Origin: Prochlorococcus sp. MIT 1341
GTDB taxonomy: Bacteria > Cyanobacteriota > Cyanobacteriia > PCC-6307 > Cyanobiaceae
Length of the DNA stretch: 64,000 bases
Direction of reading: 5' to 3'
Assembly: GCF_034092415.1 (NCBI RefSeq)
Contig: NZ_CP139304.1
Coordinates: 1,534,001 to 1,598,000 of the forward strand
Position numbers and translations under genes: made by a program. Below, in pieces: positions 33,863 through 60,235 of the stretch. The number at the start of each line of letters is the position of its first letter. The first letter of the stretch is position 1. The notes under the pieces are model-generated. The model searched no databases and was not told the origin of the DNA. It saw nothing but the letters and a program-made list of their open reading frames with translations.

Positions 33863-34333
33863 CTATATAACTCCACCTAACCTGCTAATGATTTCTATAG
33901 CGATTTTATTATGTATTGGCATTATAGAAAGCCTGTTACCTTTGCGGAGAAGAGTGAGTTGCTCAGCTGAATATGAAGCCCTTAGTTCTTCTATGGTTAA
34001 TTTCTTTTCAAATTGGCAAATATAGCCCATGCGATTACAATCCCAACGGGGATTTTCTTGTGAGGATTTTGGGTCATAGTATTTTGCATTTGGGTCGAAT
34101 TGTGTTGGATCAATTAAACCTGTTTCCAACACTTCCATAAGCCCAACTATTCCAGGAGGCTTGCAATTGGAATGATAAAAGAATGCTTTATCCCCTATGG
34201 ACATTCTTCTCATAAAATTCCTTGCTTGGTAGTTACGAATTCCATCCCAAAGAGTTGAAACTTCTTCTTTTAGATGGTTAATGCCATACACCTCAGGCTC
34301 GCTCTTCATTAGCCAGTAGTTAATTTCAGTCAT
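33863..34333 (-). CDS. EVE-domain protein; insertion target of the element array
   Basis: A 156-residue EVE-domain protein (PUA-like fold that in studied cases binds modified bases). Seen are NYWLMKSEPEVYGI at the start, WDGIRNYQARNFMRRM, GDKAFFYHSN and PGIVGLMEV. The coding sequence is complete, but its first 29 bases or so form an attachment core that recurs at 55050, 58216 and 59264. The DNA upstream of the start codon is therefore element-derived, and the gene must be expressed from the promoter that element 1 brought (a TAAGAT lies about 10 bases before the ATG). Confidence 0.92.
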   Translation of the reverse strand: MTEINYWLMKSEPEVYGINHLKEEVSTLWDGIRNYQARNFMRRMSIGDKAFFYHSNCKPPGIVGLMEVLETGLIDPTQFDPNAKYYDPKSSQENPRWDCNRMGYICQFEKKLTIEELRASYSAEQLTLLRKGNRLSIMPIHNKIAIEIISRLGGVI

Positions 34334-34334
34334 A
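34305..34334 (-). repeat. Attachment core 1 (intact EVE gene 5' end)
   Basis: Begins TTCATTAGCCAGTAGTT and ends with the complement of the EVE start codon plus one base. It is identical over 30 bases to cores 2 and 3, and over 22 of the first 23 bases to core 4. This copy is joined to the complete gene, so it is the left outer junction. Confidence 0.88.
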
Positions 34335-34360
34335 GTCTGTAATCTTAGCGATACTTGATG

Positions 34361-34382
34361 GTTGGAATGGAGTTGGAATGAA
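34361..34382 (+). repeat. Arm-type repeat pair, left end of element 1
   Basis: GTTGGAATGGA followed directly by GTTGGAATGAA. It starts 26 bases after core 1. The same 22 bases occur at 54982-55003 in the same orientation. It is probably bound by the recombinase N-terminal domain. Confidence 0.8.
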
Positions 34383-34415
34383 GCCTCATTCTTCCATCTC
34401 TTTTCTTTACTCTAT

Positions 34416-34490
34416 CTAATTTGGATTAGGTGGCTCAGCGTAAGCACCTGGAATTGACAAGAAGAACAAAGCTAGTAAGAAGTAGCGCAT
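34416..34490 (-). pseudogene. Truncated secreted-protein gene (24 codons)
   Basis: A frame that begins at an ATG overlapping the stop of the previous gene (TAATG) and encodes a complete signal peptide, MRYFLLALFFLSIPGAYA, then only EPPNPN before a TAG. It is too short to be a normal secreted protein, so it is either the stump of a third gene in this secreted-protein operon, cut when the element end formed, or a small secreted peptide. Confidence 0.5.
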
Positions 34491-35107
34491 TAGATTTCCT
34501 TCGCGCGTCTTTGGCATACATCAACCTCGAAATATGCATCTTGATATTTATGGGAGGAGAGGTCTCTTACGGCCTTTAATTCCATATTGCAATTATCTGT
34601 ATATCGAAAAAGTTTAAAGAAAGGATCTTTGCCTGAGAAGTCTCTCCAACTATCGAACTTTTTCTTATACCTTCTTTTGACAATTTCTACTGCTTGATTG
34701 ACTGCTTTTAGTTTTTCATCTTCTTCTATCGCATTTTTGCTCCATGGATGATTCTCATTGCACGGGCCACCTTCGAAACGACTGCCTCCACAAATATCAA
34801 AGCTCCATGGTGACTTCTTAGGATCACCCTCATACAAAAGAATGTTTTCAATAGATCCAGAAAGTATTGGTTCTTTTCTCTGTTTATTTTTTTTGTAATC
34901 CCAAGGAATATATCCAAACTGAAAACCTTTTTTAGTTCTCCAATGACTACCTGATGTGGCACCACTACAAGTCTGAATAATCTTGTCTACAAAGCATTTC
35001 TCCTCTTTGCAAATCTGCATATAGCCTTCGCTATCTCCGCAACCTGCTTTCGCTGGTGACGGAATAAATACAAGGAGTGCTGTTAAGAATAAGAAGCTGC
35101 GCATCAT
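34490..35107 (-). CDS. Secreted hypothetical protein, Cys-rich
   Basis: A 205-residue protein with a signal peptide (MMRSFLFLTALLVFIPSPAKA, cleavage after AKA) and then a Cys-rich mature part (CGDSEGYMQICKEEKCF, CGGSRFEGGPCNENHPW and two further Cys), suggesting disulfides in the periplasm or outside. No family is recognised. Its start overlaps the previous stop by one base and a truncated secreted frame overlaps its own stop, so it is the middle of a tight set. Confidence 0.6.
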   Translation of the reverse strand: MMRSFLFLTALLVFIPSPAKAGCGDSEGYMQICKEEKCFVDKIIQTCSGATSGSHWRTKKGFQFGYIPWDYKKNKQRKEPILSGSIENILLYEGDPKKSPWSFDICGGSRFEGGPCNENHPWSKNAIEEDEKLKAVNQAVEIVKRRYKKKFDSWRDFSGKDPFFKLFRYTDNCNMELKAVRDLSSHKYQDAYFEVDVCQRRAKEI

Positions 35108-35553
35108 TATTTCGATCTATACCAAATACAAATAAAGGCACCGTTGCTTAAAAGGTACTTAGTTTCCCCTCCAGCACTACCGATACGACAAGCAGCCTCT
35201 CTTCCTTCGGAGAGTTCTTTATAACTACCTTTCCATATTTCTTTTCCGTTAGAACTGATAGTGGCCTCATGGAATAAAGGGCGATCATCTGCTCCTCTAA
35301 AAACTCCATCCATTGACTCATCAGCCCGACTATCGTTTGTCCGAAAGGTAAATTCTGTGCCTGATCGAATGGGATTTACCGAAAACCATTGCTGACCCAT
35401 ATTGAAATGAGCGTTTAAGAGGCAAACATCGCTCAATTGGGGCTTTTCTTTAGAGAGTTTGTAGTCACATCCATAAACCATCGGCCCTGAATTGCTTGAC
35501 GCAATTACAGGCGAAGCGGCGACTAGAGCTGAAAGCAGTAAACTTCGCAGCAT
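35107..35553 (-). CDS. Secreted hypothetical protein
   Basis: A 148-residue protein with a signal peptide (MLRSLLLSALVAASPVIAS), then GPMVYGCDYKLSKEKPQLSD and a C-terminal YLLSNGAFICIWYRSK. I chose the ATG at 35553 because it places the signal peptide at the N-terminus; the frame is open to an ATG at 35619. The mature part looks beta-rich with four Cys. No family is recognised. First gene of the secreted-protein set at the left end of element 1. Confidence 0.6.
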   Translation of the reverse strand: MLRSLLLSALVAASPVIASSNSGPMVYGCDYKLSKEKPQLSDVCLLNAHFNMGQQWFSVNPIRSGTEFTFRTNDSRADESMDGVFRGADDRPLFHEATISSNGKEIWKGSYKELSEGREAACRIGSAGGETKYLLSNGAFICIWYRSK

Positions 35554-35625
35554 TATCCAGAAATCACTTGGTCCTTTTTCAAAGGATATTGCGATGGCTG
35601 GCATAAGCCAGAGATTCAAGGCAAG

Positions 35626-36018
35626 TTGATGGTCCCCAAAAAAGCCTGCTCAAGAAAATCAGGTCTAATAAAAACAATGTGTATCCGCCGAAAAGGAGTG
35701 CTTCAACTGGAAAATCTCTTCGAGAGACTTGATGATCAAGAGCTTCGCCAATTAGCTTGGGTTTATATGAGAAGAGAAAGAACCACAGCCGATCAGCATC
35801 TACGAAACATTATTGGTGGCGAAATACTTCATAGACGTAATGAGAAAGTGTCGAAACTCAATAGAGACCTTTGGTTGTCTACACGTCGGGGGAAAGTAGT
35901 AGAAGCTATTAAGCGTCGTCTTGTCCGTTGGGGAGTTTGGAGTTCTTCTAAATCAAGGGAAGAAAAAACATCTAACCTTTTCTTTTCGCTAGTCAAAGCC
36001 TTTTTTACAGGGTCATGA
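35626..36018 (+). CDS. Hypothetical protein, remotely similar to the 36699-37061 product
   Basis: Up to 130 residues, basic. The core reads LRQLAWVYMRRERTTADQHL, then VSKLNRDLWLSTRRGK, and is probably helical. A similar pattern (LIELDQYYQERSETSIDDEL ... LEKSLFLSTSKK) is seen in the gene at 36699-37061, so the two may be old paralogues. The start is uncertain: TTG 35626, ATG 35629 and ATG 35677 are all possible. No function is known. Confidence 0.5.
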   Translation: MMVPKKACSRKSGLIKTMCIRRKGVLQLENLFERLDDQELRQLAWVYMRRERTTADQHLRNIIGGEILHRRNEKVSKLNRDLWLSTRRGKVVEAIKRRLVRWGVWSSSKSREEKTSNLFFSLVKAFFTGS

Positions 36019-36034
36019 GGAAAACGGTTGGTAT

Positions 36035-36514
36035 CTATGCATCAGCTCTAGGAAGCACATTGCCCCTAGATCGGAGTAACTCTTGAGTCATTGGGCAGCG
36101 TGTACCTAACTGATCTAGCAGCATAGAGGCGATCTCAAGTCCAGCAGCTTCAAAAAGCGTGAGACTGCTAATTGTTTTGATCGCGTCTAATTCACTGCCC
36201 ATAAGATTCGTAAGGCTTTGTTCTGGGATTTTGAGTTGTTCAGCAATAACAGTAATAATTTCTTCTAACCGATCCTTCAGTAATTTGTTCTCGAGATATT
36301 CCTGCGCCTCTAACAAATCATTGATCCCAAACTTCTTTGATTTTTCTGAATGGCCTAACCCTAGTAGCTGAGGAAGTACAAACCAAATCCAATGACTTTT
36401 TTTACAACCTGAGAACAATTCAGCTACAGCTTTCTCATGAAAATTTGGAGTGCCAGTGTTTTGAGCTAAGTAAAAACGTTTTAAATTCTCAGGTACGCTC
36501 AAAGTATTGCTCAT
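36035..36514 (-). CDS. DUF1810 family protein
   Basis: A 159-residue all-helical protein of the DUF1810 family: NLKRFYLAQN at the start, the KKSHWIWFVLPQLLGLGHS motif, then FEAAGLEIASMLLDQLGTRC. The family has no firmly established biochemical role that I know of. It stands alone between the two similar small genes in the left part of element 1, convergent with the first. Confidence 0.85.
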   Translation of the reverse strand: MSNTLSVPENLKRFYLAQNTGTPNFHEKAVAELFSGCKKSHWIWFVLPQLLGLGHSEKSKKFGINDLLEAQEYLENKLLKDRLEEIITVIAEQLKIPEQSLTNLMGSELDAIKTISSLTLFEAAGLEIASMLLDQLGTRCPMTQELLRSRGNVLPRADA

Positions 36515-36698
36515 TTGATTTAATCAATAGCCAATGAAATGAGCATGGTATTTCCGAATGGTTTCAAAAAAGAATCAATAGCTTGGATTAGCGATTGAAA
36601 GTATGAAGAGTTGATCCGGATAAGTTTTTCCCCAGGCATGGCTGCAGACGTGAGTTAATCAATAAAGAATTGGTTTAAGAAATGATCCAGCTGGTTAC

Positions 36699-37061
36699 CT
36701 ATAAATTCCACACATCCTCTATAGGGAGAAGGCAGGAAGAGTTAGCGTCATCTTCCACTGGATCCCTTTGTGCATTCCTATATGGATGATGGCTAGAAAA
36801 AAACCAGACAAGACTTTTTGCAAGATTCATAAGTTTGAGAAAAAGGTTTTTTTTAGAAGTTGATAGAAATAGAGACTTTTCCAGACCATTTATTTGAGGT
36901 TTTTTTTCTTTCATGACCAACTTCACGATGTGATGAAGCTCATCATCAATAGAAGTTTCACTGCGTTCTTGATAATACTGATCTAGTTCAATCAGCTGCT
37001 CATAGGAGAGAGCTGAAGTCCCTTCATAGCAGTTCTCCCAGTCTTCGGGTTCTAAGCACAT
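36699..37061 (-). CDS. Hypothetical protein, remotely similar to the 35626-36018 product
   Basis: 120 residues, with an acidic N-terminus (MCLEPEDWENCYEGTSALSY), then LIELDQYYQERSETSIDDEL and LFLSTSKKNLFLKLMNLA. The pattern of a Tyr/Arg-rich helix followed by LSTxRK is shared with the 130-residue protein on the other strand. No known domain is visible. Confidence 0.5.
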   Translation of the reverse strand: MCLEPEDWENCYEGTSALSYEQLIELDQYYQERSETSIDDELHHIVKLVMKEKKPQINGLEKSLFLSTSKKNLFLKLMNLAKSLVWFFSSHHPYRNAQRDPVEDDANSSCLLPIEDVWNL

Positions 37062-37162
37062 CTTCTAGTATCTCCTTAGGGTCCCTATATTTACATTTGA
37101 TTCTTCTTGAGGAAAGTAAGCACGATCTTCTTAGTCTGGATCATGTCTCCTGAAATTGAAGG

Positions 37163-37241
37163 TCTATCCAAACTCTATTCAAACCACCCATTCTCGCTGA
37201 GATCCCATGGCAAAACATGAACCTAGCTACTGGCTAATGGA
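37163..37241 (-). repeat. Inverted element end: core plus arm repeats
   Basis: Read on the minus strand from 37241: a degenerate core (13 bases CATTAGCCAGTAG intact), then an 18-base block GCCATGGGATCTCAGCGA that is identical to 59294-59311, then GTTTGAATAGA and GTTTGGATAGA at 37184-37163, beginning 27 bases after the core. This is the same core-spacer-arm layout as the other element left ends but in opposite orientation, 0.25 kb before the high-GC defence operon. Confidence 0.78.
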
Positions 37242-37484
37242 GAGGGTGTCCATTTGAGTCGTTCTTCGATGGACGTCTATGGCTCAATCCAGTTCTGAGA
37301 TCTCTCTAATAAAACAAGACTTACACCAAAACTTTTCTGCCTCTCTGCTTTTTGCTGTCGTTAAGTGCCGAGGGGCGAACCCATGGCCTGCTAATCGGGG
37401 GTTTTACTGTTCTTTAATGGGCATTCAAAGCCAAGGATTCGTTCCTATATAAAGTGTTCTTGTGGTGTGGACCAGCAGTAGCCT
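37242..37484 (+). promoter_or_regulatory. Leader and likely promoter of the defence operon
   Basis: A 243-base stretch between the inverted element end and the helicase gene. TATATAAAG at about 37447-37455 is a good -10 candidate, about 30 bases before the ATG. There is a short hairpin AACCC/GGGTT around 37379-37403. No clear ribosome site precedes the helicase start, so translation may begin on a short leader. Confidence 0.45.
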
Positions 37485-40400
37485 ATGGCAACCCGCCTCG
37501 AGGACCTCAAGCCAGAAGCCTTGGTGCAAGGCCTTGTCGGTCGGGAAGCCGTGCGCGTGGTCACTGCGGAGATGCTTGGGGAAGCAGCCTGCAAGGTGGT
37601 CTACCGGTCCCAGGACGGCGCTCTGGGCGAACAACTCCTGTTCCGCAGCAATGAAGCTGAGCTGGAATTGGTTGGTGGTGGCCGCAAGTGGAGCTTTGAA
37701 GGAAGCGGTGATCTCTTCCGGCTCATCAGCGAAGCTGCCCGGATTGAGCTGGCTTACCTGTTCGACCCATACGTGGCGGTAAGCAGCAGCACGATCGATC
37801 CGCTGCCCCACCAGATCAGTGCGGTTTATGAGCACATGCTCCCCAGGCAGCCGATGCGCTTCCTGCTGGCAGACGACCCTGGAGCCGGCAAAACAATCAT
37901 GGCTGGCCTGCTGATCAAGGAGCTCTTGATCCGTGGCGAGATGGAGCGTTGCCTGATCGTGGCGCCGGGTTCTCTTACTGAGCAGTGGCAGGACGAACTC
38001 AAGGAAAAGTTCGAACTCCAGTTCGAGCTTCTGACCCGCGACCTGATCAATGCCACAGGCCTGGGTAATCCGTTTGAGCAGAGACCACTTCTGATCGCAC
38101 GGATGGACATGCTCTCCAGGGACGAAGAACTGCAGAGCCAGCTTGAGCAGGCCCTCGAATGGGACCTGGTGGTTTGCGATGAGTCACACCGCATGAGCGC
38201 CCACTACTTCGGCAGCGAGGTGAAGCGGACCAAGCGCTACGAGATGGGCAAGCGGGTGGGAAACCATGCCCGCAACCTGTTGTTGATGACGGCGACGCCC
38301 CACAATGGCAAGGAAGAGGACTTCCAACTGTTCATGGCATTGCTGGACGAAGACCGTTTTGCTGGCCACCAGCGTGATGCCGTCCACCGCAGTGATCCCA
38401 CTGACCTGATGCGGCGACTGGTCAAGGAAGACCTCTACACCTTCCAAGGAACCAAGCTTTTCCCGGAGCGCAGGAGCTACACCGCCGAATACGAGCTCTC
38501 TGATCCAGAGAAGGTCCTCTACGAGCGCGTGACTGAATACGTGCGGGAAGAGATGAACCGCGCTGACCGCAATGCCAACGAGCAAGGCGGAGGCAAAAAA
38601 CGCGTGAATGTGGGCTTTGCGTTGATGACGCTGCAACGTCGTCTCGCCAGCAGCCCATTCGCGATCCACCGCTCGATTGAACGCCGTCGTGATCGATTGG
38701 AAAGCCGCTTGAAAGAAGAGCGGCTGTTGCTTGAAGGACGTGGCGCAGAAGCTCGCCTGGGCCTCGATGCCAAGTACCAGCCTGGCTCGATGAGTGATGA
38801 AGACATCGAGGACCTCTACGAAGAGGACACGGCTGGAGAGATCGAAGGAAAAGAAGAGAAGTTCACCGACAACGCCACATCAGCTAAGACTCTTGCCGAG
38901 CTGCAGTTCGAGATCGAAATCCTGCAAGAGCTGGAGAAACTCAGCAAACGGGTCGTCGATCAACGTACAGATGCCAAGTGGCGGGAGCTGGACCGAATCC
39001 TTGATGACCCGTTGATGAAGCAGGCCAACGGCGCTCGCCGAAAATTGGTGCTTTTTACAGAGTTCAAGGACACGCTGACCGACTTGGCAAGCAAGATCCG
39101 CGATCGCTTAGGGCGCCCTGAAGCTGTGGTGGAGATACATGGCGGGGTTGCTCGTGATCGGCGCCGGCAGATCGTGCATGCATTCATGAATGATCCTGAA
39201 GTTGTGGTGCTGCTGGCCAACGATGCGGCTGGTGAAGGCGTGAACCTTCAGCGAGCGCATCTGATGGTGAATTACGACCTCCCTTGGAACCCAAACCGGT
39301 TAGAGCAACGCTTCGGGCGGATCCACCGGATTGGTCAGAAGGAGGTGTGCCATCTCTGGAACCTTCTGGCGAAAGACACCCGAGAGGGCGACGTCTACAT
39401 CCAGTTATTGCGCAAGCTGGAAGCAGCGAGAGAAGCACTTGGAGACAAGGTTTTCGACGTGTTGGGCCAACTTTTTTCTGGCCGATCACTGCGTGAGTTG
39501 CTGATGGATGCCGTTCGCTACAACGATCGCGCGGATGTGAAGGCTCGGCTTGAGCTGGAGATCGATGGAGCTGTCGACCAACGCCACCTAGAGGACCTCC
39601 TCGCGCAGAGGGCTCTGGTGCGGCAGGGCATGGACACAGCCAACGTCGAAAAGCTGCGGCAGCAAATGGAACGCGCCATGGCCAGGCGGATTCATCCCCA
39701 CTACGTGCATGACTTTTTCATCGAGGCTTTCAAGCGTCTTGGCGGCAAGGTGAACCCCAGGGAGAAGGGCCGCTACGAAGTCACCTGCGTGCCTCCCCTG
39801 CTGATGGATCGGAACCAGGAGATCGGTATTGGATTGCCTGTTCAGCCTCGTTATGAGCGGATCTGCTTTGAAAAGGAGCACGTCTCTGACAGCCCACGAG
39901 CCGAGCTCGTCAGCCCTGGGCATCCATTGCTTGAGGCCTGCATCTCCCTGGTGATGGAGCGTGATGGCTCAGTGCTGGGGCAGGGGGCTGTCTTGGTGGA
40001 CGAGCGGGATCTCGGAAGTGAGCCTCGGCTGCTGTTTTGCCTGGAGCATGGTCTTCAGGACGGCCGCAAGACCCGAACAGGTCACCAGCAATTGATCTCC
40101 AACCGCCTGCAGTTCCTGGAGATCAGCCGGAGTGGGGATGTGAATCCTGCGGGATCTGCTCCCTATCTCGATTACAGGCCACTGCAGGACGGCGAGCTGG
40201 ATCTGACAGCACCGCTGCTGCAGGAGAGCTGGTTGGCCCAGGACTGGGATTCGGTTGTGCTTCAACACGCCATGGCAACCGTCGTGCCGCAGCACCTGGA
40301 GGATGTGAAGCAAGAGAAGCTCGAGCGGATTGCCAAGGCTGAGCGCGAAATCAATGCGCGGATGACGCGGGAGATCAACCACTGGAGCCGCCGCTACGAA

Positions 40401-41012
40401 GAGCTCAAGCTGCAGGAGCAAGCTGGCAAGCAAGCGCGGCTTCCAGCTCAGGTGGCTAGAGAACGTGCCGAGGTGCTGGTGAGTCGTCTGGAGAAACGGC
40501 TAGCGCAACTGAAAGCAGAAGCTCAAATCACGGCCAAGGTCCCCAACCTCAAGGGGGGAGCACTGGTCATCCCTGCTGGATTGTTGCTGAGGCTTCAAGG
40601 GCAGAGCCAGCCTGATGCGGTGGACTCAGCAGCACGCAAACGTGTGGAGCTACTAGCCATGAACGCCGTCTTCGAAGCAGAGAAAGCGATGGGCCGCATG
40701 CCGAAAGACGTCAGCGCACAACGAGGCCTGGGTTACGACATCGAGTCGATGGATGCGCAAGGCAACCTGTTCTTCATCGAAGTGAAGGGGCGCATCGAAG
40801 GAGCCGACTCAGTGACGCTCACGATCAACGAAGTGAATACGGCGCGCAACTCACCGGATCGGTTCCGCTTGGCGCTGGTGAGTGTCGCTGGTGATGCCGC
40901 ATCTCCTCCTGTCTATGTCAGTGGCGTCGACTGGGGAATTCCTGGCTTCGGAGACATTTCAGTCACCAAAAAACTTGAGCAAATTCAGGCCGCTGGCCAA
41001 GCACCTCACTGA
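37485..41012 (+). CDS. SNF2-like helicase with C-terminal DUF3883 nuclease-like domain
   Basis: A 1175-residue superfamily 2 helicase: motif I ADDPGAGKT (129-137), motif II DESH (232-235), motif III MTATPHNG (from 268), and in the second RecA domain DAAGEGVNLQ (about 580) and RFGRIHRIGQ (about 608-617). A long coiled-coil middle follows. The C-terminus (about 1080-1165) fits DUF3883, with D-I-E-S then FFIEVKGR, a pattern like the D...ExK of PD-(D/E)XK nucleases. Such helicases occur with DUF1156 and DUF499 genes in defence islands. First gene of a three-gene operon; the next start is five bases away. GC is far above neighbouring host DNA. Confidence 0.9.
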   Translation: MATRLEDLKPEALVQGLVGREAVRVVTAEMLGEAACKVVYRSQDGALGEQLLFRSNEAELELVGGGRKWSFEGSGDLFRLISEAARIELAYLFDPYVAVSSSTIDPLPHQISAVYEHMLPRQPMRFLLADDPGAGKTIMAGLLIKELLIRGEMERCLIVAPGSLTEQWQDELKEKFELQFELLTRDLINATGLGNPFEQRPLLIARMDMLSRDEELQSQLEQALEWDLVVCDESHRMSAHYFGSEVKRTKRYEMGKRVGNHARNLLLMTATPHNGKEEDFQLFMALLDEDRFAGHQRDAVHRSDPTDLMRRLVKEDLYTFQGTKLFPERRSYTAEYELSDPEKVLYERVTEYVREEMNRADRNANEQGGGKKRVNVGFALMTLQRRLASSPFAIHRSIERRRDRLESRLKEERLLLEGRGAEARLGLDAKYQPGSMSDEDIEDLYEEDTAGEIEGKEEKFTDNATSAKTLAELQFEIEILQELEKLSKRVVDQRTDAKWRELDRILDDPLMKQANGARRKLVLFTEFKDTLTDLASKIRDRLGRPEAVVEIHGGVARDRRRQIVHAFMNDPEVVVLLANDAAGEGVNLQRAHLMVNYDLPWNPNRLEQRFGRIHRIGQKEVCHLWNLLAKDTREGDVYIQLLRKLEAAREALGDKVFDVLGQLFSGRSLRELLMDAVRYNDRADVKARLELEIDGAVDQRHLEDLLAQRALVRQGMDTANVEKLRQQMERAMARRIHPHYVHDFFIEAFKRLGGKVNPREKGRYEVTCVPPLLMDRNQEIGIGLPVQPRYERICFEKEHVSDSPRAELVSPGHPLLEACISLVMERDGSVLGQGAVLVDERDLGSEPRLLFCLEHGLQDGRKTRTGHQQLISNRLQFLEISRSGDVNPAGSAPYLDYRPLQDGELDLTAPLLQESWLAQDWDSVVLQHAMATVVPQHLEDVKQEKLERIAKAEREINARMTREINHWSRRYEELKLQEQAGKQARLPAQVARERAEVLVSRLEKRLAQLKAEAQITAKVPNLKGGALVIPAGLLLRLQGQSQPDAVDSAARKRVELLAMNAVFEAEKAMGRMPKDVSAQRGLGYDIESMDAQGNLFFIEVKGRIEGADSVTLTINEVNTARNSPDRFRLALVSVAGDAASPPVYVSGVDWGIPGFGDISVTKKLEQIQAAGQAPH

Positions 41013-41017
41013 TAACG

Positions 41018-43933
41018 ATGACCGACTACCCCGTAAAACGCCGCAAGAAACTGATTGAGGTTGCCATCCCTCTGGAGGCGATCAATGCAGCATCAGCGAA
41101 AGAGAAAAGCATCCGCCATGGGCATCCGAGCACTTTGCACTTGTGGTGGGCACGGCGGCCGTTGGCAGCAGCAAGGGCAGTGATCTTTTGCCAGATGGTG
41201 GATGACCCATCGGCAGTACCAGAGGAGTTCCCGACAGAAGAAGACCAGGAGAACGAACGGCTGCGGCTGTTTGCTCTGATTAGTGAGCTAGTCACCTGGG
41301 AGAACACCACCAATGAGGAGGTGTTGAACCGGGCGCGGGCAGAGATCAGCCGCAGCTGGAAGCGTTGCTGCGCCGATAACGCCGAGCACCCTGAGGCAGC
41401 TGAGCTGTTCAACCCGGAGACGCTGCCAGGTTTCCACGATCCCTTCGCGGGGGGTGGGGCCTTGCCGCTAGAGGCGCAGCGCCTGGGACTGGAGAGCTAC
41501 GCCAGTGATCTGAACCCGGTAGCAGTGCTGATCAACAAAGCAATGATCGAGATACCGCCGAAGTTTGCGGGGATGCCGCCGGTGAACCCGGAGAGGAGGC
41601 TCAACCTTGATGTGCACCAGTGGAAGGGCGCCCAGGGCTTGGCGGAAGACGTGCGCTACTACGGCAAATGGATGCGCGATGAAGCCGAAAAGCGCATCGG
41701 TCACCTCTATCCGAAGGTGCTGATCACCCCGGAGATGGTGAACGATCCGGAGAATCCGCGCCCGGATCTCAAGCCTTACGAAGGACAGGAACTCACCGTG
41801 ATCGCCTGGCTCTGGGCGCGCACCGTGAAGAGCCCAAACCCGGCTTTCTCCCATGTGGAAGTGCCTCTGGCTTCCACCTTCATGCTCTCCACCAAGAACG
41901 GCAAGGAGGCCTATGTCGAGCCGGTGATCGAGGACGGCGACTATCGCTTCACTGTGAAGGTCGGCAAGCCACAGAATCCGGAGAGGGCGAAGAACGGCAC
42001 AAAGGTTGGCAGAGGAGGAAACTTCACATGTCTGATGTCAAACACGCTTATTAAGGTTTCAACTATTCGTGACCAAGGTGTTGCCGGGACTTTGGGTGCG
42101 CGGCTGATGGCAATCGTCGCTGAGGGTACGCGCGGACGCGTCTATCTTCCTCCGACACCGGAGCACGAAGCAGCGGCAGATAGTGCGAATCCGCCATGGA
42201 GACCTGAGACCGAGATTAACCACAATCCGCGCGACATCCGCACTCAGCTCTACGGTCTCACCAACTACTGCGACCTCTTCACAGATCGCCAGCTAGTGGC
42301 ACTCACCACCTTCTCCGATCTCGTGGGCGAAGCGATACAAAAAGTTCGCAGTGATGCTCTTCGAGCGGGACTATCTGATAACTCCACATCTCTGCGTGAT
42401 GGCGGCATTGGCGTCGATGGGTACTCGGAAGCAGTCTGCACCTATCTTGCCTTCTGTCTTGACAAAATGACAGACACGAATACTTGCTTATGCAGCTGGC
42501 AGGTCAATCCGCCCAGGCTGAGGGCAACTTTTGGGAGGCAGGCTTTACCCATGGTCTGGGATTATGCGGAGGCCAATGTTTTTGGCGACGCAGCTGGTGA
42601 CTTCCAAAGATGTGTCGGCTCTCTCACAGAGGTCTTAGACAAACAAACAGTTCCTGTTTTGCCAGGAATAGTCGATCAGTTCGATGCGCAGAGACAGGAA
42701 ATTAGCGCAAATAAAATAGTGTCGACCGACCCTCCATATTATGACAATATTGGCTATGCAGACCTTTCAGATTTTTTCTATGTCTGGCTGCGTCAATCAC
42801 TCCGTACACTCCATCCAAACCTGTTCGCCACACTTGTTGTTCCAAAAGCAGAGGAGTTAGTTGCTACGCCGTATCGCCACAACGGCAAGGAGCAAGCCGA
42901 AGAGTTCTTCCTAAAGGGCATGACTGAGGCAATGCATAAGCTCGCCATACAGACTCATGCAGGCTTCCCAATCAGCATCTATTACGCCTTTAAGCAATCT
43001 GAAACGAAAGCATTGCAAGGCACAGCAAGTACTGGCTGGGAAACATTTTTGGCAGCCGTCATTGATGCTGGGCTAGCCATCACTGGTACTTGGCCGATGC
43101 GATCGGAGCTCGCAACTCGGAATGTTGGCAGAGGCACAAATGCTCTCGCCTCAAGTATAGTTCTGGTTTGCCACAGCAGGAATAGAGATTCAGACGTACT
43201 TTCTCGTACTGCCTTCCGCCGCGAGCTACGAAAGCATCTGCCCGAGGCAATCAAAGAGCTAGAACGCGCCAATATTGCACCTGTAGATGTTGCTCAAGCG
43301 GCAATTGGGCCTGGCATAGCAATTTTCAGCCAAGCCAAAGCTGTTCTTAACTCTGACGACTCCTCAATGAGTGTCAGGGATGCGCTGATTGAAATCAACG
43401 AGGCGCTCGATGAATACCTGGCCGAAGATGAAGGCTCCTTTGACGCAGACACATGCTTCGCACTCACTTTCTTCGAGAGTTATGGCTACGAAGAACGCCC
43501 TTATGGCGATGCTGAAGGCTTAGCAATAGCGAGGAATGTCTCGGTTCAGGGTGTTGCCGATGCGGGGATTCTGAGGGCTATCGCTGGCAAAGTTCAATTG
43601 CTTCGCCGTGAGCAACTTGATGCCGATTGGGACCCATCAAGTGATGGCCGCCTATGCGTATGGGAAGCCACTCAGCACTTGATCAAAAAGCTAGAGGTAG
43701 GTGGCGAAGCATCTGCCGCGGCCCTTCTTGCACAGCTCAAGAATCTTCTTGGGCAAGGAGAGCTGGTCGCGAACTGTCGTGCTCTTGCTTACCGCCTCTT
43801 CAACCACTGCGAGAAGACAAAGCAAACAGAGGAAGCTCGTGCTTACAACGGGCTCGTGATCGCTTGGCCAGAACTTGAACGGCTAGCAGCTTCTCAATCT
43901 TCTGAATCCGCTGTTCAGACCACCCTGATCTGA
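41018..43933 (+). CDS. DUF1156 adenine-type DNA methyltransferase, anti-phage associated
   Basis: 971 residues. The N-terminus is a textbook DUF1156 segment (KLIEVAIPLEAINAASAKEK, HPSTLHLWWARRPLAAARA). SAM motif I is DPFAGGGALPLEA (about 141-147) and catalytic motif IV is TDPPYYDNIGYADLSDFFY near residue 570, of the amino-methyltransferase (N6-adenine or N4-cytosine) kind. Base composition changes inside the gene: 36 of 60 bases are GC at 41641-41700 but 24 of 60 at 42721-42780. This suggests replacement of the central and C-terminal region, where target recognition may lie. Predicted to mark self DNA in the defence system. Confidence 0.9.
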   Translation: MTDYPVKRRKKLIEVAIPLEAINAASAKEKSIRHGHPSTLHLWWARRPLAAARAVIFCQMVDDPSAVPEEFPTEEDQENERLRLFALISELVTWENTTNEEVLNRARAEISRSWKRCCADNAEHPEAAELFNPETLPGFHDPFAGGGALPLEAQRLGLESYASDLNPVAVLINKAMIEIPPKFAGMPPVNPERRLNLDVHQWKGAQGLAEDVRYYGKWMRDEAEKRIGHLYPKVLITPEMVNDPENPRPDLKPYEGQELTVIAWLWARTVKSPNPAFSHVEVPLASTFMLSTKNGKEAYVEPVIEDGDYRFTVKVGKPQNPERAKNGTKVGRGGNFTCLMSNTLIKVSTIRDQGVAGTLGARLMAIVAEGTRGRVYLPPTPEHEAAADSANPPWRPETEINHNPRDIRTQLYGLTNYCDLFTDRQLVALTTFSDLVGEAIQKVRSDALRAGLSDNSTSLRDGGIGVDGYSEAVCTYLAFCLDKMTDTNTCLCSWQVNPPRLRATFGRQALPMVWDYAEANVFGDAAGDFQRCVGSLTEVLDKQTVPVLPGIVDQFDAQRQEISANKIVSTDPPYYDNIGYADLSDFFYVWLRQSLRTLHPNLFATLVVPKAEELVATPYRHNGKEQAEEFFLKGMTEAMHKLAIQTHAGFPISIYYAFKQSETKALQGTASTGWETFLAAVIDAGLAITGTWPMRSELATRNVGRGTNALASSIVLVCHSRNRDSDVLSRTAFRRELRKHLPEAIKELERANIAPVDVAQAAIGPGIAIFSQAKAVLNSDDSSMSVRDALIEINEALDEYLAEDEGSFDADTCFALTFFESYGYEERPYGDAEGLAIARNVSVQGVADAGILRAIAGKVQLLRREQLDADWDPSSDGRLCVWEATQHLIKKLEVGGEASAAALLAQLKNLLGQGELVANCRALAYRLFNHCEKTKQTEEARAYNGLVIAWPELERLAASQSSESAVQTTLI

Positions 43934-43940
43934 TCGACCT

Positions 43941-46900
43941 ATGGCTCTCTCCAACCGCGACCGCATCGGCAAGGCCCTTGATCAGCTCGCTGCTGGTCTG
44001 CTGCCCTATGTCTCCCTCCAGCTCTACAACTCTGTTGGCAGCGACTGGCAAGACCGCCTACCTCCACAAGCCAACAACCTCCAAGACGTCTCAGTCCTCC
44101 TGAAGCTCTTCATGGAGCACTGGGGGCTGGTCTTCAAGAAGTTGCTCAGCAACTCGGATCGCGCCTATGTGAGTGAGCTTTTAGAGGCTCGCAATAAGTG
44201 GGCCCATGCCGAGGCGATGTCTTCGGATGACGTCGATCGTTATCTCGACACCGCTGTTCGTCTCTGCCGCAACATCAACGCCACCGATCAGGCGGAGACA
44301 ATTCGTTCTCTGCGAGAAGAGCTCCAACAGCAGGTTTACACGGAACGGGCGCGCAACAAGACCCGGTATCAAGCCACCATTGCCAACCAGGTTCAGTCAG
44401 GTCTGAAGCCATGGCGTGAGGTGATCACTCCCCACCCAGATGTGATCAGCGGGAAGTACCAGCAGGCCGAATTTGCTGCTGATCTGGATCTTGTTCAGAG
44501 AGGTGTGGGCAGCTCGGAGTACACCGATCCAGAGGAGTTTTATCGACGCACCTTCATCACCGATGGCCTTAGGGATCTGCTGAAGATAGCTCTGCAGCGC
44601 TTCAACAGCCAGGGCGGCGAGCCCGTAATCGAGCTGCAAACCAACTTCGGTGGCGGCAAGACCCACTCGATGTTGGCGCTCTATCACTTGTGTTCCGGCG
44701 TCCCCTTGGCATCCCTCCCTGGTCTTGACCAGGTCTGCAGTGAGCTTGGGATCAACAGTGTTCCTAAGGCTTCAAGAGCCGTCTTGGTGGGCACAGCCTT
44801 CAACCCTTCCAAGACCGATACCAAGCCCGATGGCACCGAGGTCCACACCCTCTGGGGTGAACTCGCTTGGCAGCTTGGAGGTGCCTCCGGTTATGCCGAG
44901 ATCGCAGAGAGTGACAAGCGTCAGGTCCCCCCTGGTGCCCGGGCACTTGCAGCACTATTCGAGGCCCATGGCCCGTGTTTGATCCTTCTTGATGAGTGGG
45001 TGGCCTATGCCCGCAACCTCGTCTCGCAGGGTGACTTACCGGCTGGCACATTCGACGCCCAGTTGTCGTTTGCGCAGCAGCTCACCGAAGCCACCAAACA
45101 GGTCTCGAACGCTCTCTTGTTGATCTCTGTTCCTCAAAGCCGCAATGAAATCGGTGGCAGTGATGGTCAGATCGCATGTGATGGCTTGAAGAACGTGGTC
45201 ACGCGTCTCGCCTATCAGTGGCGTCCTGCGACAGGGAACGAAAGCTACGAGATCGTCCGTCGACGACTGTTCGAGCCGATCGCGACCAGTGAAGACGGGG
45301 CCAATCGAGATGCAGTAGTTCGGTCGTTCACCGACCTCTACGCAGTGAATAAGGCCGACTTCCCTTCCGAGGCGCGAGAGCCCGGCTACCGAGATCTGCT
45401 CACCTCGGCTTATCCGATTCACCCAGAACTGTTCGAGCGTCTCTACGAAGACTGGAGCACCCTCGATCGTTTCCAACGCACGCGTGGTGTCTTGCGCTTG
45501 CTTGCTCTCACAATCGAAGGTCTTTGGAGCGGCGACAGCAAGGACTTGCTGATCATGCCCAGCTCAATGCCGATCGATGACAACGACGTCAAGAACGAGC
45601 TGGTGCGTTTCTTGGATAACCAGTGGGAGCCAATCATTTCCCAAGACGTCGATGGCGGCCAATCAGTGCCAACTCGCCTCGATGCAGAGAACCCCAACTT
45701 CGGCCGGGTGAGTGCCTGCAAGCGTGTCGCCAGAAGCCTGTACATGGGCACTGCGCCTGGAGCCAACCGTGAGCGCAAAGGCATCAACGACCAACGCGTG
45801 AAGCTCGCCTGCGTCATGCCAGGAGAACCCATTGCTGTTTTCGGTGATGCCTTGCGGCGTCTTGGAGATCGCGGTCGCTACATCCAGCAAGACGGCGATC
45901 GCTATTGGATCGACACCAGCCCCAATCTCAACCGCACAGCCGAGGACTACAGGGAGAGCTATCTGCGCCAAAAGGACGAGCTGCTGGCTGAGCTAAACCA
46001 ACTGCTGGCGAAGGAAGCCTCCAAGCGCGGACGATTTGATGGCGTCCACGCAGCCCAGATCGAAACCAGCGGCATCCCAGATGAAGCCACAACGCGTTTG
46101 GTTCTGCTGGCCGCCCAGTACCCCTACAAGCGCAATCAGGACACCAGCCCTGCACGTGAGTGGGTCAGCAGTTGCCTGCAAAGCAAGGGGAACAGCCCGA
46201 GGCAGTTTCAGAACACGCTGGTGTTCCTCGCTCCGGACGAGCAGAACCTCGACAACCTCTTTCAAGCGCTAGCCGACAGACGTGCGTGGCAACGGGTGAT
46301 CGACGAGAAGCTGCTACTGCAGATCACCGTCAACCAGGAAAACCAGGCCGCGACCAAGATCCAGGAGGCAGTGGAGGCAATCGCTCTACGAATTCCAGAG
46401 ACTTGGTCTTATCTCTTGGTGCCCTACCAAAGTCAGCCCGGTCCCCAGGGAGCTGATTGGGATGAAAAGCGCCTGAGTGGTGGCAAAGGCTCACTAGCTG
46501 AGCGAGCGACTGAGAAATGCATTCAGGAAGACCTGCTTGCAGCTCAGCTCGGTGCACGGGCGATCAAAGAGAAGCTCAATGCGTTCCTCTGGCGTGACCG
46601 TCCGCATGTCGAGGTACGTGAGTTGGTGGAGTGGTGCCGAAAGTACCTCTACCTGCCGCGCATCAGCACCGATCAGGTGATCCTCGATGCCTTGGTGAAC
46701 CCGCAAGCAGCGATGACTGGAGAGGAGACCTTCCACCTTGCTGATTCCGTTGATCAGGCATCGGGTCGCTATGCAGGCCTTCGACCTCAAGAAGCTTCCA
46801 GCACTCAATTGCCAACGCTGAACAGCCTGGTCGTCAAAAACGAAGTGGCCCTGCAGCAACTTGCTTCTGCGACTCTCATTGATGTCGTAGACGTATCTCT

Positions 46901-47234
46901 TAGACCCGTGTCGTCCACTTCGACTGCACATAGAGCAACGTCAGCAGACACTTCGTCCGCGAATGTGGCACCACCTCAACCAGAAGCACCTGCGAAGCCT
47001 CAACTGCCAACGCGCTTTGTCGCATCAGTGAAGCTCGACTCAACAAGGGCCAGCCTTCAGATGAGCACCTTCATGGAAGAGGTGATGTCGCATCTCCAGG
47101 CTTTGGATGGTGCCGACGTTGAGATGACTTTGGAAGTCCAGGTCAGAGCTCCTGCTGGTATCGATGAGCAGACAGCGCGGATCGTGCTGGAGAACTCAGT
47201 AGCGTTGAAGGTAGAAAACCCAGGGCTCTACTAA
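43941..47234 (+). CDS. DUF499 AAA-type ATPase with N-terminal Swt1-like HEPN domain, anti-phage associated
   Basis: 1097 residues. The N-terminal 110 residues look like a Swt1-type HEPN domain: EARNKWAHAE has the R-x4-H pair (Arg84, His89) that acts in HEPN RNases. The DUF499 ATPase follows, with Walker A NFGGGKTHS near 235-243, Walker B LILLDEWVAYARN near 347-359, and a sensor stretch LLISVPQSRNEIGG. The C-terminus has a Pro/Thr-rich linker and a small beta-rich tail. It starts seven bases after the methyltransferase gene. The protein may couple nucleotide hydrolysis to phage sensing or to RNA cleavage; this is inferred. Confidence 0.9.
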   Translation: MALSNRDRIGKALDQLAAGLLPYVSLQLYNSVGSDWQDRLPPQANNLQDVSVLLKLFMEHWGLVFKKLLSNSDRAYVSELLEARNKWAHAEAMSSDDVDRYLDTAVRLCRNINATDQAETIRSLREELQQQVYTERARNKTRYQATIANQVQSGLKPWREVITPHPDVISGKYQQAEFAADLDLVQRGVGSSEYTDPEEFYRRTFITDGLRDLLKIALQRFNSQGGEPVIELQTNFGGGKTHSMLALYHLCSGVPLASLPGLDQVCSELGINSVPKASRAVLVGTAFNPSKTDTKPDGTEVHTLWGELAWQLGGASGYAEIAESDKRQVPPGARALAALFEAHGPCLILLDEWVAYARNLVSQGDLPAGTFDAQLSFAQQLTEATKQVSNALLLISVPQSRNEIGGSDGQIACDGLKNVVTRLAYQWRPATGNESYEIVRRRLFEPIATSEDGANRDAVVRSFTDLYAVNKADFPSEAREPGYRDLLTSAYPIHPELFERLYEDWSTLDRFQRTRGVLRLLALTIEGLWSGDSKDLLIMPSSMPIDDNDVKNELVRFLDNQWEPIISQDVDGGQSVPTRLDAENPNFGRVSACKRVARSLYMGTAPGANRERKGINDQRVKLACVMPGEPIAVFGDALRRLGDRGRYIQQDGDRYWIDTSPNLNRTAEDYRESYLRQKDELLAELNQLLAKEASKRGRFDGVHAAQIETSGIPDEATTRLVLLAAQYPYKRNQDTSPAREWVSSCLQSKGNSPRQFQNTLVFLAPDEQNLDNLFQALADRRAWQRVIDEKLLLQITVNQENQAATKIQEAVEAIALRIPETWSYLLVPYQSQPGPQGADWDEKRLSGGKGSLAERATEKCIQEDLLAAQLGARAIKEKLNAFLWRDRPHVEVRELVEWCRKYLYLPRISTDQVILDALVNPQAAMTGEETFHLADSVDQASGRYAGLRPQEASSTQLPTLNSLVVKNEVALQQLASATLIDVVDVSLRPVSSTSTAHRATSADTSSANVAPPQPEAPAKPQLPTRFVASVKLDSTRASLQMSTFMEEVMSHLQALDGADVEMTLEVQVRAPAGIDEQTARIVLENSVALKVENPGLY

Positions 47235-47869
47235 TTGCAGTTGATGGTATTGGCAGCTTTAATTAAATCCCTTGCTCTCAATAATTCTCGTCTAATTGAG
47301 AAGTCTAGTAATAGCAGTTGGTTCGGAGGAAAGCTATTAGGAATTATTCCAACCTTTTTGTGAATCCATTCCAACTTTGAATAAATAGTTAGTAATACCA
47401 AGCTGGTTCGCTTTTCTTCTAGGAGTATTCAAGGTTGCTTTTCTGCGACTTCAAGGATCGATTTCAAGATGTTAGAGACCATTCCTATGAATCAATCCAT
47501 TCATCCTCATAGCTTCTTTGGGGAGGGGCGTATGGGGGTGATGAGCGTCCCTACTACATCGTTAAACCACCTCTCAAATCTGTGAAAATTTTTTTGGGAC
47601 TTATTTCCCTAAGCCTTCCAGTAATAGTCCCACTCTCCTTGAAGTTCAGTACTAGATAGGGAGTTATAGAACCCTCTCCACTTCTTTTCCGAGTTGGCAT
47701 CAGTAGCAACTAAGGACACCAACAGATCTATTGCTTGTTCTTGGTTAAAGGTTTTGCCGTCATCTGATTTGAATATCATTTTTGCTTTAACCCATAACTA
47801 AAATTTACTGCTTTCTGATGAGTCAGTGAGTTATAGGTATCTTTAAGCATAGAAAACTATTTTCAGAAT
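47235..47869. other. AT-rich gap at the end of the high-GC module, with two arm-like half sites
   Basis: Composition falls abruptly from the high-GC operon to AT-rich DNA here. On the minus strand GTTGGAATGGA (47375-47365) and GTTGGAATAAT (47353-47343) lie 22 bases apart, twice the 11-base period of the element 1 arm repeats; no core is near. A small minus-strand gene lies at 47609-47779. Otherwise I see no RNA gene or terminator of note. Confidence 0.5.
47609..47779 (-). CDS. Small hypothetical protein (56 aa)
   Basis: A 56-codon frame from ATG to TAG: it begins MIFKSDDGKTFNQEQAIDLL and ends with GFYNSLSSTELQGEWDYYWKA-like aromatic sequence. The amino-acid mix looks like a real small soluble protein, but the ribosome site is weak and there is no family I recognise. 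It lies alone, opposite to its neighbours. Confidence 0.45.
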   Translation of the reverse strand: MIFKSDDGKTFNQEQAIDLLVSLVATDANSEKKWRGFYNSLSSTELQGEWDYYWKA

Positions 47870-53391: not shown

Positions 53392-54945
53392 TTAATCGGC
53401 ATATAACTGAACTATTGCTGCATTACTTGTTTTCTTTCCGTACTCGATGTCCGTGATTTCCTTCGTTCTCTTTCGTATGTCTATGCGTTCGTAGGTGTCC
53501 ATGATTGTCTTGACGCTGTTGCCGCAAATACGAGCAAGTAAAAAGATGTCTGTTCCTTTCATTAAGTGATTTTCAATGAAAGTAGAACGTAGTGAGTAGA
53601 GGGTATAAGGACGATCAGAGAATTTATGACCTTTTAGTTTCCCCTCATCCATCAACTTATCCACTGCCCATCTCCAATGCTGTTGGATCTTTCTTTGATT
53701 CGGTTGCTTCATCTCGTTATGGATCTGAGCAAAGACAAAGTCATCACCTCTGACTGTGTGCTTCATCTCGTTCTCTAGAAAGTATTTCCATCTCCTAAAG
53801 ACATAACCAAGGTTGCAAGGAATCTCCCTAACTCTTGAAGTCTTGGCTCGAACAGTGGTGATGAATGAGATGAGTCGTTCTTCTCGTCCCCAAGCATCGT
53901 GATTGAGAACCCAATCAGAAGGGTTTACGTCTAAGTCTGGAGGTTCGATATAGATCTCATCTTCTTTCCCTTCTTCTTTGATCTCATCAAGGATCTGCTC
54001 ATACTCTTCTATCGCCTTTGACTTACTGATCCTTCCGACATCAATAATCTCGACACTCTTCCATTTCATCTTGCAGATCTCCTCGGGGGACATGCCAGTG
54101 CTCTTGGCGATTAATAACCAATGCCAGAACATGTTGCGGAAATAGATCGACTTCTCTGAACGTCTTCCGAACTGATCTTTCTCATATGCCAATGGTCTCC
54201 ACTCTTCTCTGACGTAATCGATAATTGTTCTCCAGTCTTCTGGATTAATTGCTGGGTTGGCGTCCTTATCTGTTTCTCTGACTGTGATTCGTGGTAAGAA
54301 CTGACCATCAAGCCATAGGTGAGCAGGGATGTATTTATGTTTAACCAAATAGCTCTTTATAAATTCACCTAAGACTGCAAGCTCTCTATGAATCACGATG
54401 CGTCTTTGTGTTTGCCGCATCCTGAACTCAGGGTATTGATCAAAGGTTGTATTGGTGATTTGGCTTGTCAGAACAACTTTCCTTTTCTTGAGGAAGTCCA
54501 TGATGTGTTTTGAACAGTTCAACTTGTGCTCATAACTGTTCTGAGAAAAGGTTCCTGCATCCACTCTTCTTTGCTGTTCCATTAACCATTGACCCATTGC
54601 TTTCTCGATTGAGATCTTGGGGTTCTCTTTCTTCTGTTGTTCTCGTGCAAGCTTCTCTTTTTTCTTGAGCAGTTTCTCTTCCCTTTGAACCAAATTCATC
54701 GGGTCATAGTTCTCGACTATGCGTTCTGCATCCTTGAGTTCATCTCTTAGTTCGATAGCTGCATCAGCCGCTAAGGATTCAGCCTCATCCAGATTCTTGG
54801 CATCAGGAAGAACTTTGAATTTATAAGCTTTCTGTCCTTGTACCTTTTCTCGATAAAAGAACTTCCCCTCGCTGGTTCCAACACCAAACTGTCCAACTAT
54901 TCCACGCCCATTCAGGACTTTTCTTTTCTCTAAAATCTTTGGCAT
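53392..54945 (-). CDS. Tyrosine recombinase (integrase) of element 1
   Basis: 517 residues. The N-terminal 110 residues are arm-binding and coiled-coil-like; a core-binding region follows (about 112-205). In the catalytic domain are the beta-strand Lys region TSRVREIPC, box II YSLRSTF (450-456, Arg453), GNS (475-477, Asn where His is usual) and the nucleophile in DTYERI (Tyr485). The first catalytic Arg, expected in TGxR, is replaced: TGMSPEEI has Ser286. It starts 36 bases from the arm repeat and about 105 from core 2, the normal place for an integrase next to its attachment site. Confidence 0.88.
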   Translation of the reverse strand: MPKILEKRKVLNGRGIVGQFGVGTSEGKFFYREKVQGQKAYKFKVLPDAKNLDEAESLAADAAIELRDELKDAERIVENYDPMNLVQREEKLLKKKEKLAREQQKKENPKISIEKAMGQWLMEQQRRVDAGTFSQNSYEHKLNCSKHIMDFLKKRKVVLTSQITNTTFDQYPEFRMRQTQRRIVIHRELAVLGEFIKSYLVKHKYIPAHLWLDGQFLPRITVRETDKDANPAINPEDWRTIIDYVREEWRPLAYEKDQFGRRSEKSIYFRNMFWHWLLIAKSTGMSPEEICKMKWKSVEIIDVGRISKSKAIEEYEQILDEIKEEGKEDEIYIEPPDLDVNPSDWVLNHDAWGREERLISFITTVRAKTSRVREIPCNLGYVFRRWKYFLENEMKHTVRGDDFVFAQIHNEMKQPNQRKIQQHWRWAVDKLMDEGKLKGHKFSDRPYTLYSLRSTFIENHLMKGTDIFLLARICGNSVKTIMDTYERIDIRKRTKEITDIEYGKKTSNAAIVQLYAD

Positions 54946-54981: not shown

Positions 54982-55003
54982 GTTGGAATGGAGTTGGAAT
55001 GAA
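54982..55003 (+). repeat. Arm-type repeat pair, right end of element 1
   Basis: GTTGGAATGGA plus GTTGGAATGAA, identical to the pair at 34361-34382. It ends exactly 46 bases before core 2, between the integrase start and the core. Confidence 0.82.
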
Positions 55004-55049
55004 ATTATCCGATTCCTTTAAAACCCAGTCCTTCACTCATCTTACGTAC

Positions 55050-55079
55050 TTCATTAGCCAGTAGTTAATTTCAGTCATA
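55050..55079 (-). repeat. Attachment core 2 (junction of elements 1 and 2)
   Basis: Identical to core 1 over 30 bases. Read on the minus strand it still encodes the EVE N-terminus (MTEINYWLMK) but runs into a stop four codons later, so it is a displaced 5' fragment. Identity with core 3 continues to about 55086. Confidence 0.88.
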
Positions 55080-55562: not shown

Positions 55563-55722
55563 CCGAGGCGTGTATATCTTTTACTACTTTGAAGCAAAAA
55601 AAAGCATTTTCAAAAGAGTCTACTTATACAGATATGTTTTGAAACTCTTCAAAAAATTCTACTAGTGTTTGTTTGGCATGAATTTGGGTAACTCCTTCTC
55701 TCTCTCAAAATAATGACGAGGT

Positions 55723-56436
55723 TTATGCGAAACCCTTCCCTTTGGGATTTGTTTTGCTGCCGGCGGTAAGGAAGTGCGTTTTATCGCTACCAATGTCATA
55801 AAGGGTGTAATTCAAGCCAGCTCCAATTCCAATCACGCTTCGTTTGGGAACTTCCTGTTGTTGTTCACGTTTACCGTTCAGATCCTTTACTTGTGAATTG
55901 ATCCCTCCTCCAGTCAGTTCAAGATGAAATTGTTTAGTACTGCGCGCTGTGAACAGTCTGTTCACATTGAGACGGGTGAGTCGATCAAGGAGGATCAGTG
56001 GAGATGTTTCAGCTGTGAGGTTGTCACCCACGTCTGAAGAGCTCCCATGGATGAGTGCACAGTCAAGTTCAATGAAGCCAAATTGCAGTGATGCCAGCCA
56101 TTTCAGGTGAGAAGGATTAACCGTATTCAGCAGTGCGCTGACTGTGTCTTCACCTTGGCTGAGCCGCAGAGCATCAGCTTTGCGTTCACCACGAAACCCA
56201 CGCTCTGCAAGTAGTTGCTCTTCCCACCAACCATAGATGCAATCTGGTTTTAAATCGCCGCGATGGGGATTTTTTAGTCGATCTAAGAGTGCGTCACAGT
56301 TGCGTTCGGGTCCGACTAGGTCTCCAAGGACAAATAAGGCTGTAACCCCACGAGTCTTCTTTAGATCCCGTTGAATTAGGTCATAGGTCTCGAGATCTCC
56401 GCGTAGACCACTTACTAGTGCCCATCTTTCAATCAT
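55723..56436 (-). CDS. Metallophosphoesterase-like protein lacking most metal ligands
   Basis: 237 residues with the metallophosphoesterase fold pattern, but the metal-binding motifs are largely lost. The D-x-H start reads LVSGLRGD, GDLVG is kept (LFVLGDLVGPERN), the GNHD position reads YGWWEEQ, HG is kept in ALIHGSSSD, and GHTH reads ARST. It is therefore probably not a phosphatase; it may bind and regulate its neighbour. It overlaps the true metallophosphoesterase gene by four bases (ATGA). Confidence 0.7.
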   Translation of the reverse strand: MIERWALVSGLRGDLETYDLIQRDLKKTRGVTALFVLGDLVGPERNCDALLDRLKNPHRGDLKPDCIYGWWEEQLLAERGFRGERKADALRLSQGEDTVSALLNTVNPSHLKWLASLQFGFIELDCALIHGSSSDVGDNLTAETSPLILLDRLTRLNVNRLFTARSTKQFHLELTGGGINSQVKDLNGKREQQQEVPKRSVIGIGAGLNYTLYDIGSDKTHFLTAGSKTNPKGKGFA

Positions 56437-57248: not shown

Positions 57249-57253
57249 GGCGA

Positions 57254-58039: not shown

Positions 58040-58086
58040 TCTTTGGACAATGACAATCGCTCTATAAAAATATCAGAAGGCGAGAA

Positions 58087-58101
58087 CGATAACCATTTTC
58101 A
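58087..58101. promoter_or_regulatory. Zur/Fur-like box upstream of the CobW-like gene
   Basis: CGATAACCATTTTCA matches the cyanobacterial Zur consensus TGATAATCATTATCA at 12 of 15 positions, with the central symmetric bases kept. It is 48 to 62 bases before the CobW-like start, where a repressor would overlap the promoter. Zur would silence the operon in zinc-replete cells; a Fur-type reading is also possible. Confidence 0.5.
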
Positions 58102-58215: not shown

Positions 58216-58245
58216 TTCATTAGCCAGTAGTTAATTTCAGTCATA
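58216..58245 (-). repeat. Attachment core 3 (junction of elements 2 and 3)
   Basis: Identical to cores 1 and 2 over 30 bases, and to core 2 for about seven more. On the minus strand it encodes MTEINYWLMKSSL then stop, another displaced EVE 5' fragment. Confidence 0.88.
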
Positions 58246-59263: not shown

Positions 59264-59331
59264 TTCATTAGCCAGTAGTTGATTTCCTGTTGTGCCATGG
59301 GATCTCAGCGATATTGCGATGTGTGGATGAC
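59264..59331 (-). repeat. Degenerate core 4 with relic arm site (right end of the array)
   Basis: The first 23 bases match core 1 with one mismatch, then diverge. The 18-base block at 59294-59311 equals the inverted 37k end. At 59321-59331, 27 bases after the core, GTGTGGATGAC matches the arm pattern GTKTGRAYRRA at 10 of 11 positions; the second unit is gone. So this is an old, decayed element left end at the border to core genome. Confidence 0.68.
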
Positions 59332-59499
59332 TTAACATTCTCACCCTCTTATTTCTATTCTATTTCAATCAAGTTTTGATTACTAATACAAACAGATCGC
59401 AACTGACAGAAAAACTCCTCTATTCCCAATAAGAAGGGTCTGTTGAGAAAACTAGTAACGGCAAAAGATCTGAGTTATTCCAATTTTTTCTATCTTGAC
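59332..59499. other. AT-rich stretch between the array and the core genome
   Basis: No gene, repeat or clear promoter is visible. It lies downstream of the HEAT-like gene and may include the remains of an older insertion. Confidence 0.3.
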
Positions 59500-60219: not shown

Positions 60220-60235
60220 AGATAGTCCTTTGGCC

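Follow-up and report, generated by a model that had tools for sequence, protein, structure and literature searches.

Attachment sites of the lambda Int type consist of a shared core with short direct repeats on each side, and the integrase gene lies near one end. Proteins of the EVE domain family bind modified DNA bases. The tycheposons of Prochlorococcus have one of seven tRNA genes at their border, as described in PMC10872708. Hma is a candidate defence operon in which helicase, methylase and ATPase genes follow one another in that order (PMC8565338). On EVE-gene integration in cyanobacteria and on attachment arrays in Prochlorococcus, a literature search whose scope stopped short of the original tycheposon study returned nothing specific.

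The window, by which we mean the whole stretch of 64,000 nucleotides that was analysed (1534001-1598000 in a single-contig genome of 1.94 Mb), contains an array of elements at an EVE-domain gene (Table 1). As in lambda Int-type sites, the core is flanked by direct repeats on both sides and an integrase gene lies beside one end, but here the arms, tandem 11-mers, come in several types, the left end restores the start of a gene, and the site at 37163-37241 is inverted and without a partner. Like the tycheposons as described (PMC10872708), the elements join a tyrosine recombinase to variable cargo in islands of the same organism group. Element 1 (34305-55050) is 20.7 kb long, within the 4-200 kb of tycheposons, and its cargo zone differs among sister elements; nitrite genes (FocA-like and NirA-like) are among the cargo of this array. 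In contrast to the tycheposons, the elements border on a protein gene, at the 5' end of EVE, and not on a tRNA gene, and no tRNA genes were found in the window. The operon next to the inverted site has HmaA helicase, HmaB methylase and HmaC ATPase genes in order, with full-length or nearly full-length matches, but differs from Hma as described (PMC8565338) in the N-terminal HEPN_Swt1 domain of HmaC, which lies outside the PADLOC model, and in being carried by a mobile element, in a small genome of low GC.

Table 1. Features of the EVE array and of element 1, in window coordinates.
Feature	Position	Strand	Remarks
EVE-domain gene, integration target	33863..34333	-	PF01878, E 4e-52; core inside its 5' end
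Element 1 left end	34305..34423	+	Core 34305-34327; arms GTTGGAATGGAGTTGGAATGAA 34361-34382; conserved to about 34423
Cargo piece	34424..36073	+	94% to part of a different integrase-bearing element, G065 (C2)
DUF1810 protein gene	36035..36514	-	PF08837, E 5e-32; part resembles a longer gene of the same G065 element
Captured gene (ORF 36699-37061, MCLEPEDWE...)	36539..37061	-	77-79% DNA identity
Small-gene fragment (43-aa family, ..EEDRAYFP..)	37097..37153	-	Interrupted by stop; abuts inverted end
Inverted-end arm pair, 11 bp each	37163..37184	-	GTTTGAATAGA GTTTGGATAGA
Inverted-end spacer	37185..37218	-	In-frame ATG (MAKHEPSYWLM); includes 18-base block 37194-37211
Inverted-end core	37219..37241	-	4/23 mismatches to array consensus
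Outer flank of inverted end	37242..37345	-	G031:C5 only, also abutting a core there; possibly a divergent right end
Hma operon: HmaA 37485-41012, HmaB 41018-43933, HmaC 43941-47234	37485..47234	+	PADLOC E 0, 0 and 2.5e-296
Conserved non-coding block inside element 1	47267..47600	+	First ~30 bases missing beside Hma
Element 1 tyrosine-recombinase integrase	53392..54945	-	PHROG 1 integrase, E 3e-14
Element 1 right end	54982..55072	+	Arms 54982-55003; core 2 at 55050-55072
Core 3	58216..58238	+	Repeat copy
Core 4	59264..59286	+	Spacer of the inverted-end type, but GTGTGGATG-type arm

The array of cores at the EVE gene

The core repeat of the array, TTCATTAGCCAGTAGTTAATTTC, is the 5' end of the EVE gene and encodes EINYWLM; the first codons of the gene (MTEINYWLM) come from the left end of an element. 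Direct copies of the core begin at 34305, 55050, 58216 and 59264 in the window, the array extends about 24 kb beyond the window, as far as 1621.7 kb in the genome, and a weaker core copy lies at 1642.5 kb. In left ends the core is followed, after a spacer of 32-34 bp, by a pair of 11-bp arm sites; in right ends a pair of arm sites comes first and the core follows about 46 bp later. An in-frame ATG leading into YWLM or a variant accompanies 82 of the 117 cores read in the window and relatives, and each insertion would therefore give the EVE gene a new start, with stacking in one direction. In the scheme that we infer from this anatomy, elements of the family would insert into the chromosomal EVE gene at its 5' end, the left end would bring a new start codon and the first codons and thereby restore the gene, and one insertion after another would build up a co-oriented tandem array. 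The locus suggests that a family of arrays exists at a protein gene, which is rebuilt with each insertion; the literature covered by our search has no description of such arrays.

Orientation of the cores follows the same pattern, and every array core of this genome other than the inverted one faces in the direction opposite to it. Cores in the window's own genome (three mismatches or fewer) number 10 forward and 0 reverse, and among the matches listed from 122 genomes orientation was uniform in 26 of the 28 contigs with at least two cores (hand count). The exceptions among these matches were G077, with one distant site in the opposite sense, and G023:C24, which is mixed. A segment of the G029 array that holds several cores (C2:227.8-239.2 kb; L119/L120) lies in inverted orientation with forward segments on either side, a real inversion within an array; G023 perhaps has one too. 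The left break of the G029 segment adjoins a right arm whose core is gone.

Cargo of the array was also found elsewhere. The genes that follow core 4 (59480-62980), named by eye as a FocA-like transporter and a NirA-like nitrite reductase, occur in the EVE arrays of G029 and G023 as well, at 93-95%. The cargo of element 2 (55697-58099), by eye a CobW-like protein and two phosphoesterase-like proteins, is a three-gene module that serves as cargo of many arrays (91-98%); in G031 the module adjoins zinc-uptake-like genes.

Anatomy of the inverted end

The minus strand at 37163-37241 reads, in order, core TCCATTAGCCAGTAGCTAGGTTC (37241-37219), spacer and the arms GTTTGAATAGA GTTTGGATAGA (37184-37163), exactly as the first-pass annotation had described it, and matches left ends in many genomes. 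The 27-base spacer given there applies when the core is counted as 30 bases; with a core of 23 bases the spacer has 34 bases, compared with 32-33 bases at the other ends of the window. The core agrees with the conserved EVE core CATTAGCCAGTAG and deviates mainly by a natural variant. Because this variant, TTCATTAGCCAGTAGCTAGGTTC, is common in nature, the core is not decayed. The tandem 11-bp arms lie 34 bp from the core, within the range of left ends, and an EVE start codon stands in frame within the spacer.

Among matches to other genomes, the best (94% over 88 bp, E 8e-33) was to a left end in G065, the one immediately downstream of the element 1 sister in AG-439-B13. Left ends of many further genomes were 84-92% identical, and the best alignment score with another end was 157 (G132, L118), against a maximum of 31 in 200 shuffles. 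These values exclude a chance match. Judged by its sequence, 37163-37241 is a genuine left end of MAxxEPSYWLM type and belongs to an element whose integration site is the EVE gene start. Neither the inverted end with its core nor a relative of the element 1 integrase was found in viral contigs, and a search of Rfam gave no match. A right-end partner in the same orientation is absent, with no minus-strand core near 34.4 kb within seven mismatches.

The spacer shares the 18-base block GCCATGGGATCTCAGCGA with the plus strand at 59294-59311, as had been noted earlier. Core 4, which stands beside that copy, had been described as decayed and as standing at the far right of the array. We find no special tie to core 4, since the CCATGGG spacer accompanies 33 of the 117 cores read in the window and relatives and the closest matches among ends come from other genomes. 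Core 4 has only one mismatch, and the array runs well past it and past the window.

Spacer, core and flank together (37185-37344) recur in G031 alone, at 94% over 160 bp, and among the 400 genomes searched the outer flank (37242-37345) has no strong match besides G031. The stretch might be a junction of two elements, with the right end of one at 37242-37345 and the left end of the other at 37163-37241, that was inverted or inserted inverted; Hma would be cargo of the first element and the outer ends would have been lost later. The flank abuts a core in G031 too, beside the three-gene module that is cargo of element 2 in the window, and there (L031 10753-10855) it holds two 12-bp direct repeats, AGTGTTGGTGTA and AGTGTTGTTGTA, possibly a different arm type, while the left end of the same G031 unit has a similar GTTGTTGT stretch. 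The segment with multiple cores in G029, truly inverted between forward segments, also speaks for a junction of this kind. However, the flank was rejected as a usual right arm, its score against about 100 other right flanks being 22 where the shuffle mean was 22.5; a left end of the Hma part is absent near 47.25 kb, and 34424-36073 is colinear with a different element. We consider an inverted junction unlikely.

Element 1 and its sisters

The two ends of element 1 are both of the GTTGGAATGGA type, and the left arms are identical to the right arms. The integrase gene adjoins the right end, as it also does in relatives down to about 60% identity; the relatives of the integrase are from Prochlorococcus or Synechococcaceae single-cell genomes. 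Its match to Pfam Phage_integrase (E 2e-4) is below the gathering score.

Only four close relatives of element 1 were found, mostly in fragmentary single-cell assemblies: AG-439-B13 (L074/L112/L113), AG-363-N16 (L043), AG-363-P19 (L036) and AG-409-M05 (L040). Their integrases are 92-98% identical in protein sequence to that of element 1. The first-pass annotation had suggested that element 1 is a composite and called for relatives that have the element without 37.2-47.3 kb. All four sisters lack 34424-47266, and with it the inverted core and Hma, and have otherwise the same layout, which bears out the composite nature of element 1. Only 0.2-1.7 kb separates the left end from the conserved block (47267 in the window) in the sisters. 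The block opens there with ACAGATCG (ACAGATCR..), and this head is missing in the window beside Hma, which makes the insert the derived state. Neither an element end nor a shared direct repeat was found at the boundaries of the insert, 34424 and 47267. The sole 10-mers common to both boundary regions belong to the arm sequence GTTGGAATGG, which is in the block of every sister, and no second inverted core was found at 34.4 or 47.25 kb.

Composition and origin of the insert

The insert (34424-47266; 12.8 kb) occupies the left cargo zone of element 1, holds the Hma operon and the inverted end, and is a mosaic of several sources. The piece at 34424-36073 has the same orientation relative to the integrase as in the G065 element, whose recombinase differs. 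The captured gene at 36539-37061 adjoins a SIMPL-like gene (named by eye) in G013, G064 and G200; a search of the window's own genome, run without a positive control, gave no match to this SIMPL-like neighbour. In a search of 251 genomes of the family, only larger genomes had close relatives of HmaC, the best Hma match having 82% protein identity (G215), and the operon looks Synechococcus-derived. A second genome spanning the Hma junctions was not found.

The inverted end is of the GTTTGAAT type and adjoins the defence operon, as the first reading of the locus had it; Hma begins at 37485 and has a GC content of 57%. From this position, that reading suggested capture of the Hma block, or inversion of 34.3-37.2 kb, by recombination between GTTTGAAT-type ends, and the inverted segments of G029 and perhaps G023 are in keeping with such events. 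Element 1 itself argues otherwise. Its matched GTTGGAATGGA ends stand in their usual places, and one inversion that recombined the inverted core with core 1 or 2 is disfavoured because it would break the match of the arms; no GTTTGAAT end lies at 34424 or 47267. The sisters lack the segment altogether rather than having it reversed, and since 34424-36073 is colinear in the G065 element, 34.3-37.2 kb did not simply flip. Capture or inversion through GTTTGAAT-type ends is therefore improbable in our estimate.

Two sites in inverted orientation, 34305 (+) and 37241 (-), flank a 2.9-kb segment (34305-37241) that the integrase of element 1 or of a sister could conceivably flip by recombining core 1 with the inverted core, so that EVE would start with MTEI or with MAKHEPS and a different upstream region. 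With an intact core, intact arms and an in-frame start codon, EVE would be complete whichever way the segment lay; were such flipping to occur, a mobile element would control the host gene EVE through two starts and their upstream regions. However, the flipped state was found in no relative or second copy among the genomes searched, the arm types differ (GTTTGAATAGA vs. GTTGGAATGGA), and the present arm pairing shows no net inversion. An active inversion of this kind seems very improbable, and the inverted end is probably not a working switch.

We favour, and regard as fairly probable, a reading in which the inverted end is the relic of a left attachment end, carried as a passenger in the patchwork cargo of element 1. 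It would stem from a further element of this family and retain that element's core, P-prime spacer and pair of integrase arm sites. Non-site-specific recombination would have brought the 12.8-kb patchwork into the cargo zone of element 1, between its left end and the block at 47267: cargo of a different element, the captured gene, the fragment from the small-gene family, Hma, and about 190 bp that cover the inverted end and its flank; the partner of the passenger end would be gone. We infer that this recombination was illegitimate or used short homology, that the pieces perhaps arrived in more than one step, and that the end is now inactive. Against a relic, both core and arms of the inverted end look intact, a degree of preservation that a dead relic would not need. 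Flank and core also occur together in G031, so this end may have travelled within a larger unit whose partner is missing.

A relic of this kind would record how such elements swap cargo. In the streamlined cyanobacteria of the ocean, large gains of cargo would then be possible with the integrase ends fixed, the zone behind the left end being rewritten by patchwork recombination, which in element 1 would have added a candidate antiviral operon.

Repeats in the conserved block

The conserved block of element 1 has two GTTGGAAT repeats on the minus strand near 47346-47375. The blocks behind the left ends of the window, L074, L043, L036, L040, L119 and L037 each hold two repeats of 8-10 bp, about 22 bp apart and on the opposite strand, which vary in step with the arm type of their own element: GTTGGAAT in element 1, L074 and L043, GTTCGAAT in L036, and GTGTGGAT where the left ends are of the core-4 type. 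This tracking of the arm type suggests that the repeats are a putative third binding site, for the integrase or for a partner protein.
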